64,000 nucleotides of DNA, taken from NCBI RefSeq assembly GCF_001719065.1, contig NZ_LWAF01000001.1:62001-126000 (forward strand), written 5' to 3'. Both the position numbers and the translations under genes were made by a program. Shown here in pieces: positions 52,003 through 53,631 of the stretch (the first letter of the stretch is position 1; each line of letters starts with the position of its first letter). The notes below the pieces were generated by a model. That model worked only from the letters and a program-made list of their open reading frames with translations, had not been told where the DNA came from and did not search any database. Source of the stretch: Fervidobacterium thailandense. Lineage in GTDB: Bacteria > Thermotogota > Thermotogae > Thermotogales > Fervidobacteriaceae.

Positions 52003-53112
52003 ATGAGTGTGATCGTTGCACCGCTGATCGTTGCTGGAATAACCACCGCGTTGGCTATCGTGATAACGATCGTCGATGCGATCGTCAACAACTACGGTGA
52101 GGTCGAGATCGATATTAACAACGGAAAGAGAGTTCTCAAAGTAAAAGGAGGAGCCCCCCTACTGACAACACTGTCCTCCGAGGGTATATTCGTTCCATCT
52201 GCCTGTGGTGGAAGGGGAAGTTGTGGAGCGTGCAAGGTGAGAGTTCTCTCGGACGTGGGGTCGTACCTTCCAACGGAGATCCCGTACATGAGCAAAGAAG
52301 AGATAGCAAAGAACATTAGGTTGTCGTGTCAAATAAAGGTTAAGAAGCCTATCAAAATTGAACTGCCCGAGGAACTCTTCAATATCAGAAAGTTCAAGGG
52401 TATAGTTGAGAGTCTTAAGGACGTTACGTATGACATAAAGGAAGTTAGAATTAGGCTCGTGGAACCTCCTGAAATAAACTTTAAGGCCGGTCAATACGCT
52501 CAACTTGTCATACCACCCTACGAAAACATCAAAGAACCAACGCAAAGGGCCTACTCCATATCATCACCACCGAGCGATAAAAACCACGTCGAATTCCTGA
52601 TAAGGCTCGTACCCGGCGGTATTGCAACCACCTACGTGCACAAGTACATGAAAGAGGGCGATGTTGTCGAACTCGTCGGACCGTTTGGTGATTTCTACAT
52701 GCGCGATACGGATGCTGATATGATCATGGTTGCCGGTGGTAGTGGAATGGCACCGATAAAATCGATACTCTTGGACATGTACGAACGCGGAATCACACAC
52801 AGAAGAGTCTGGTACTTCTTCGGTGCCCGCAGTGGAAGGGACCTATACTACGTGGAACTTTTCAGGGAACTTGAGCAAAAGTGGCCCAACTTCAAGTTTA
52901 TTCCCGCACTTTCCGAACCGCGTCCGGAGGACAACTGGACTGGAGAAGTTGGATTGATAACAGTTGTGCTCGAACGTTACTTGGAAAACGTCATACCAAA
53001 AGAGGGCCCAAAAGAAGGTTACCTTTGCGGAAGTCCCGGAATGATAAACGCATGCGTTCAGGTTTTCGAAAAGTTCGGAATAAAGGATGTTTACTACGAT
53101 AAATTCGCTTAA
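52003..53112 (+). CDS. nqrF: NqrF-type NADH dehydrogenase subunit (2Fe-2S / FAD)
   Basis: A 369-residue protein: N-terminal membrane helix (VIVAPLIVAGITTALAIVITIV), plant-type 2Fe-2S domain with CGGRGSCGACKVRVLS and distant Cys in LSCQIKV, FAD domain with RAYSISSPPSD, and NAD domain with MVAGGSGMAPIKSILLDM and LCGSPGMI. This is the architecture of NqrF, the NADH-oxidising subunit of Na-NQR. It stands where an Rnf operon would have RnfC and RnfB. NADH to FAD to 2Fe-2S to the membrane flavins is the expected path. Confidence 0.93.
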   Translation: MSVIVAPLIVAGITTALAIVITIVDAIVNNYGEVEIDINNGKRVLKVKGGAPLLTTLSSEGIFVPSACGGRGSCGACKVRVLSDVGSYLPTEIPYMSKEEIAKNIRLSCQIKVKKPIKIELPEELFNIRKFKGIVESLKDVTYDIKEVRIRLVEPPEINFKAGQYAQLVIPPYENIKEPTQRAYSISSPPSDKNHVEFLIRLVPGGIATTYVHKYMKEGDVVELVGPFGDFYMRDTDADMIMVAGGSGMAPIKSILLDMYERGITHRRVWYFFGARSGRDLYYVELFRELEQKWPNFKFIPALSEPRPEDNWTGEVGLITVVLERYLENVIPKEGPKEGYLCGSPGMINACVQVFEKFGIKDVYYDKFA

Positions 53113-53130
53113 TCAGAAGAAACGTTGAAA

Positions 53131-53184
53131 GGGGGGAGCGCACAGTTTCAAGCCTCCGGCTGAGGAAACGTGCGCGCATTTATG
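53131..53184 (+). promoter_or_regulatory. Ribosome site separated from its start codon by a hairpin
   Basis: GGGGGGAG (53131-53137) is followed by a long hairpin 53138-53175: GCGCAC/GTGCGC, one bulged A, GTTTC/GAAAC, a small internal loop, AGCC/GGCT with triloop TCC. Six bases later comes ATG 53182. Folding brings the Shine-Dalgarno to normal spacing from ATG 53182 and buries the alternative GTG 53170 in the stem. Confidence 0.6.
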
Positions 53185-53631
53185 AAGATGACACCAAAGT
53201 ACATAAAGGCTCAGGAGAACATGAAACCTGGAAAAATAACGGCCGACGGATTCTTGGGAAACGACGATAGGAATATAGTGGACATAATCACCACCGACGA
53301 GGAAGAATTTTCGTTTCTGGGCTTAGATTTCGTCGAAGTTGCAAAACTTATGAGAAAACTTATGAAAGAAGGTCTCAAGGGTCTTGGGGAACCTATCACC
53401 TACGACAAATGGGAGATCAAGGTGGATGAGGCACGCGGATACCTACCTTGCCCGTTCCAGGATGGCATCTTCAGAAAGCGAGTGGCAACTGTGAAAAACC
53501 TGAAGAACGGTAAGGAGATCGTTTACAGTGAACTTTCGATTCACCTACTTGCCGCACACCACTTCTTGCAAGGTAAGGGCTCGAAATTCAGACTCGAACC
53601 AGCACTTTTGAAGGAAGTACTCTACGAATGA
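53182..53631 (+). CDS. Conserved-looking protein of unknown function downstream of nqrF
   Basis: A 149-residue soluble protein from ATG 53182 (153 if GTG 53170 is used). I do not recognise a family. It is alpha/beta, with acidic N-terminal half (GFLGNDDRNIVDIITTDEEEFSFLGLD), a helix VAKLMRKLMKEGLKGLG, YLPCPFQDGIFRKRVATVKN and a C-terminal SIHLLAAHHFLQGKGSKFRLEP. One Cys only; His pair AAHHF. It follows nqrF by about 70 bases and may be part of the same transcript. A role linked to the electron-transport complex is only a guess from position. Confidence 0.6.
   Translation: MKMTPKYIKAQENMKPGKITADGFLGNDDRNIVDIITTDEEEFSFLGLDFVEVAKLMRKLMKEGLKGLGEPITYDKWEIKVDEARGYLPCPFQDGIFRKRVATVKNLKNGKEIVYSELSIHLLAAHHFLQGKGSKFRLEPALLKEVLYE

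Follow-up and report, generated by a model that had tools for sequence, protein, structure and literature searches.

A candidate ribosome-binding site split by an RNA hairpin downstream of nqrF in a Thermotogales genome

Genes and features at the nqrF junction

We analyzed a 64,000-nucleotide stretch of DNA (the window) from a Thermotogales genome of 2.04 Mb and 46% G+C, in a family of Fervidobacterium-like relatives of a different genus; the published values for F. thailandense are 45.8% G+C and 2.07 Mb (PMC11673897). Within the window, nqrF is followed by a gene for a conserved 149-residue protein, and the junction between them carries a strong Shine-Dalgarno site, a stable stem-loop and a start codon, in that order:

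52003-53112, + strand: nqrF, Na+-translocating NADH:quinone reductase subunit F, the upstream cistron (TIGR01941, 309.5 bits; cut-off, 295)
53110-53112, + strand: TAA stop codon of nqrF
53127-53136, + strand: Shine-Dalgarno site GAAAGGGGGG, located by its duplex with the genome's own 16S 3' end; its G-run is shared with relatives L002 to L006
53131-53136, + strand: the G-run, read from the sequence, with A 53137 next
53138-53175, + strand: stem-loop of 38 nt and 15 bp between the Shine-Dalgarno site and the start codon, predicted by folding
53162-53165, + strand: GAGG inside the hairpin, a weak Shine-Dalgarno-like site for GTG 53170 (-5.6 kcal/mol)
53170-53172, + strand: competing in-frame GTG, placed in the 3' arm of the stem by pairing probabilities
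53176-53181, + strand: spacer GCATTT from the hairpin foot to the ATG, read from the sequence
53182-53631, + strand: conserved 149-aa protein of unknown function, from ATG 53182; orthologues align from this Met

The nqrF stop and ATG 53182 are separated by 69 nt, and the stem begins 26 nt past the stop. A preliminary description of this DNA had reported the 38-nt stem-loop with ATG 53182 six bases beyond it, and both the sequence and the coordinates hold. It had also proposed that the start lies too far from the Shine-Dalgarno site when the RNA is unfolded (about 44 bases) and at a normal distance when it is folded (about 6). Our counts agree, at 45 to 46 nt linearly and 7 to 8 nt with the hairpin looped out. 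Deleting exactly 53138-53175 in silico gives GGGGGGAGCATTTATG, which resembles the GGGGGG-N6-ATG of the nearest relatives. An imperfect direct repeat with the exact core GAAACGT lies before the hairpin (GAAGAAACGT, 53116-53125) and inside it (GAGGAAACGT, 53162-53171), and may hint at the origin of the extra bases.

In 22 of 45 Thermotogales genomes, that of the window among them, and in a Spirochaetales metagenome-assembled genome, the gene for the 149-aa protein immediately follows nqrF. Cys90, His121 and His126 are invariant. The protein matched nothing in Pfam, NCBIfam or PDB sequences and had no significant PDB fold match, while its AlphaFold2 model has a pLDDT of 96; it is possibly an undescribed NQR accessory protein. 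In a search run without a positive control, nqrF was unmatched in four high-completeness genomes of the family (G010, the only one analyzed from the same genus, and G005, G016 and G019), and the NQR complex appears to have been patchily lost or gained in the family.

Shine-Dalgarno energetics and hairpin stability

Pairing of GAAAGGGGGG with the genome's own 16S 3' end, CACCTCCTTTCT, is predicted at -14.1 kcal/mol at 37 C, the strongest of 23 orthologous sites; the median over 530 genes sampled is -9.3 kcal/mol. For this duplex the spacing is 46 nt linearly and 8 nt after the hairpin is looped out. The linear alternative is the GAGG within the hairpin, 15 nt from ATG 53182 and 3 to 4 nt from GTG 53170, and ATG 53182 has no other linear site better than its -5.6 kcal/mol.

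The hairpin has a predicted energy of -18.9 kcal/mol. Its 15 pairs are interrupted by a 1-nt bulge and a 1x3 internal loop and capped by a 3-nt loop. It had been described as nearly perfect, which is slightly generous. Only 3 of 200 dinucleotide shuffles were equally stable (z, -2.9; the hairpin beats 98.5%), as were 10 of 5,000 mononucleotide shuffles of 53137-53181. Fervidobacteria grow at 65 to 80 C (PMC11673897). The six outer pairs are predicted to be jointly formed with a probability of 0.85 at 65 C, 0.70 at 75 C, 0.57 at 80 C and 0.41 at 85 C. When 300 nt of context are folded at 65 to 80 C, the G-run bases are about 60 to 76% unpaired and ATG 53182 is 50 to 80% unpaired, whereas GTG 53170 has an unpaired probability of at most 0.4. 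All these values are nearest-neighbor extrapolations that take no account of magnesium, polyamines or proteins. Folding at growth temperature, a check proposed beforehand, thus leaves the stem mostly folded and the Shine-Dalgarno site and ATG mostly exposed, with GTG 53170 mostly paired, in line with the claim that the stem buries it.

These predictions also bear on a possible response to temperature. The G-run is mostly unpaired throughout 37 to 80 C. At 37 C, which is below the growth range, a weak additional stem pairs with ATG 53182, whereas the codon is mostly free at 65 to 80 C. We therefore rejected an RNA thermometer, as the site and start are not paired in the cold and free in the heat within the growth range. 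The suggestion that the stem is a temperature- or protein-sensitive switch found no backing either, given a stem mostly folded over 65 to 80 C and conserved in no relative; a regulatory role for the hairpin is possible but unsupported. If temperature does act, melting of the stem near the upper growth limit is expected to bring a loss of initiation, whereas a classical thermometer works in the other direction. Because melting is predicted at about 80 to 85 C, the gene could depend on the 15-bp hairpin for initiation and the hairpin could act as an inverse heat sensor, on when folded and with the Shine-Dalgarno site out of reach when melted, tuning an NQR-associated gene. We regard this as quite unlikely.

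Strong hairpins are common in this genome, with 179 clusters at or below -17 kcal/mol in 283 kb on both strands, so the case rests on the position of this one. We surveyed a 583-kb, 530-gene sample of the same genome for hairpins whose removal restores strong Shine-Dalgarno spacing, and the nqrF junction ranked top. The runner-up resembled a terminator, lying directly behind a stop codon and carrying a T-tract, and third came a long, loose fold. By a rough estimate, from the hairpin-cluster count and a guess at how densely Shine-Dalgarno-like sites occur, about 0.1 to 0.2 such placements are expected by chance per genome. Statistics alone are therefore not decisive, and orthology is the stronger argument.

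The hairpin was compared with known kinds of element. A dispersed, REP-like element was rejected, as searches with the DNA itself, with patterns and with a covariance model returned no further copy from this genome or from 19 genomes of the family. The GTTTC...GAAAC core recalls a CRISPR-repeat remnant, which we rejected since the other pattern matches were unrelated sequences. There was no match in Rfam, and none in a search of viral contigs. An intrinsic terminator was excluded because no U-tract follows the stem and no terminator was called. A position between two cistrons of one operon would suit a transcript-processing, stabilizing or attenuation element of the nqr operon, but the absence of a T-tract or terminator call, of an Rfam match and of copies elsewhere makes that role highly improbable.

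Orthologous junctions and the conserved start

We read 22 orthologous junctions, from 21 Thermotogales and one Spirochaetales bacterium, and all 22 keep the order of nqrF then the 149-aa gene. The orthologous proteins share a first aligned residue at the position of ATG 53182 (L026 and L027 start with GTG; the protein alignment was made without L026, whose locus coordinates were shifted). This comparative evidence suggests that ATG 53182 is the true start codon, as previously proposed. In 20 of the 22 junctions the gap is 12 to 29 nt, with a Shine-Dalgarno site 3 to 9 nt before the start and no hairpin. The five nearest relatives, L002 to L006, have GGGGGG, about 6 nt and then ATG, with the same G-run as the window. 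Only L007 and L008 differ in layout, with 78-nt junctions and a GAGG site close to the ATG that is used.

In those two sequences, which are closely related (minus strand, just beyond position 1947), the Shine-Dalgarno sequence AAAGAGGUG forms an 8-bp hairpin with CACUUUUU. This hairpin is predicted to melt near 70 to 75 C and resembles a fourU-type thermometer; it had no match in Rfam.

The GAGG of L007 and L008, at a comparable place, lends something to initiation at GTG 53170. Once heat or ribosomes melt the hairpin, the GAGG at 53162-53165, in frame and 3 to 4 nt upstream, could direct a start there that adds MRAF ahead of the conserved Met, leaving the G-run as a relic. We find this rather unlikely. 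The GTG is mostly paired at all growth temperatures, its site, at a spacing of 3, falls well short of the median for the 530 sampled genes, and the G-run is undecayed and the strongest of the orthologous set. The extension from GTG 53170 to the ATG is absent from all orthologues, and a stop occupies position -15 in L004, L014 and L015.

Termination-reinitiation or coupling from nqrF would let ribosomes or 30S subunits moving along the mRNA reach the start, making the hairpin an incidental passenger. An operon order that is the same in all relatives and the generally short junctions favor coupling, but the gap here is 69 nt rather than 12 to 29, the stable stem lies across the path, and a strong Shine-Dalgarno site has been retained. 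We consider this account unlikely.

The hairpin occurred in none of the other genomes searched, close relatives included, which left the search for compensatory changes in the stem nothing to compare. Relatives that keep the gene and lack the stem had been named in advance as evidence against the proposal. Such relatives exist, but they also lack the 38 extra bases; deep conservation is therefore ruled out, and bridging is not. The L007 junction partly resembles that of the window (its alignment beats 1,999 of 2,000 shuffles), and that of its sister L008 does not. The tree places the window genome with L002 to L006 rather than with L007 and L008, with only moderate support (81/88). Given these long junctions and this support, the sequences are compatible with either a gain of the hairpin in the window lineage or loss of an older long junction in L002 to L006.

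The extra bases might instead have damaged the ribosome-binding site, leaving the gene poorly translated and the fold a product of chance or a trace of insertion. Equally strong hairpins elsewhere in the genome, relatives without the hairpin, and the short repeat GA(A/G)GAAACGT before and inside it are in keeping with damage. We consider it very unlikely, as the protein is intact, at 84 to 89% identity to its nearest orthologues, and the ends of the hairpin leave near-normal spacing on both sides.

A probable split site and its comparison with known systems

The window retains the two ends of the ancestral ribosome-binding site, and the bases between them fold. We thus favor, as the probable though far from certain reading, that the ribosome-binding site of the gene downstream of nqrF is split and bridged by the hairpin. 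The 30S subunit would pair with GAAAGGGGGG; the 38 nt between site and spacer would be folded away as a 15-bp hairpin, projecting away between the site and the P site; and the effective distance to ATG 53182 would be about 7 to 8 nt. In the window lineage, the Shine-Dalgarno site and the ATG, both ancestral, would be separated by extra bases that are tolerable because of their self-complementarity. What computation shows is the site, its hairpin, a start shared with the orthologues and the spacing in relatives; from these we infer that ribosomes in the cell cross the hairpin and start at ATG 53182.

Orthologues that have the same site and start but no insert provide a natural experiment on the amount of structure that the ribosome can accommodate between its binding site and the start codon at high temperature. 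Starts of this kind would be misjudged by gene-finding programs whose scores assume linear spacing.

The best-known examples of hairpin-bridged initiation are two T4 genes, and a partial, word-based literature search found no bacterial chromosomal case. RNA thermometers and other Shine-Dalgarno-sequestering hairpins likewise place a hairpin in the translation initiation region, but the stem at the nqrF junction holds neither the Shine-Dalgarno site nor the ATG, and its folding would help the conserved start.

In T4, a hairpin cuts the Shine-Dalgarno-AUG spacing from 22 to 5 in gene 38 and from 27 to 11 in gene 25, and destabilizing mutations lower initiation, so that both cases are experimentally supported (Nivinskas 1999; Malys and Nivinskas 2009; reviewed in PMC3014915). 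The comparison with gene 38 made in the preliminary description is apt and extends to gene 25: the nqrF junction likewise has a strong site that is linearly too distant and a stable intervening hairpin that restores the spacing. Conservation of the hairpin is a feature of the T-even set; it serves as support and is no part of how the mechanism is defined. The gene 25 arrangement is also confined to close relatives, as at the nqrF junction. The nqrF junction differs in lying on a bacterial chromosome, that of a thermophile, in being known here from sequence, and in its scale: a 38-nt hairpin, about twice the length of those in T4, which counts against bridging, would shorten the spacing from 45 to 7 nt.
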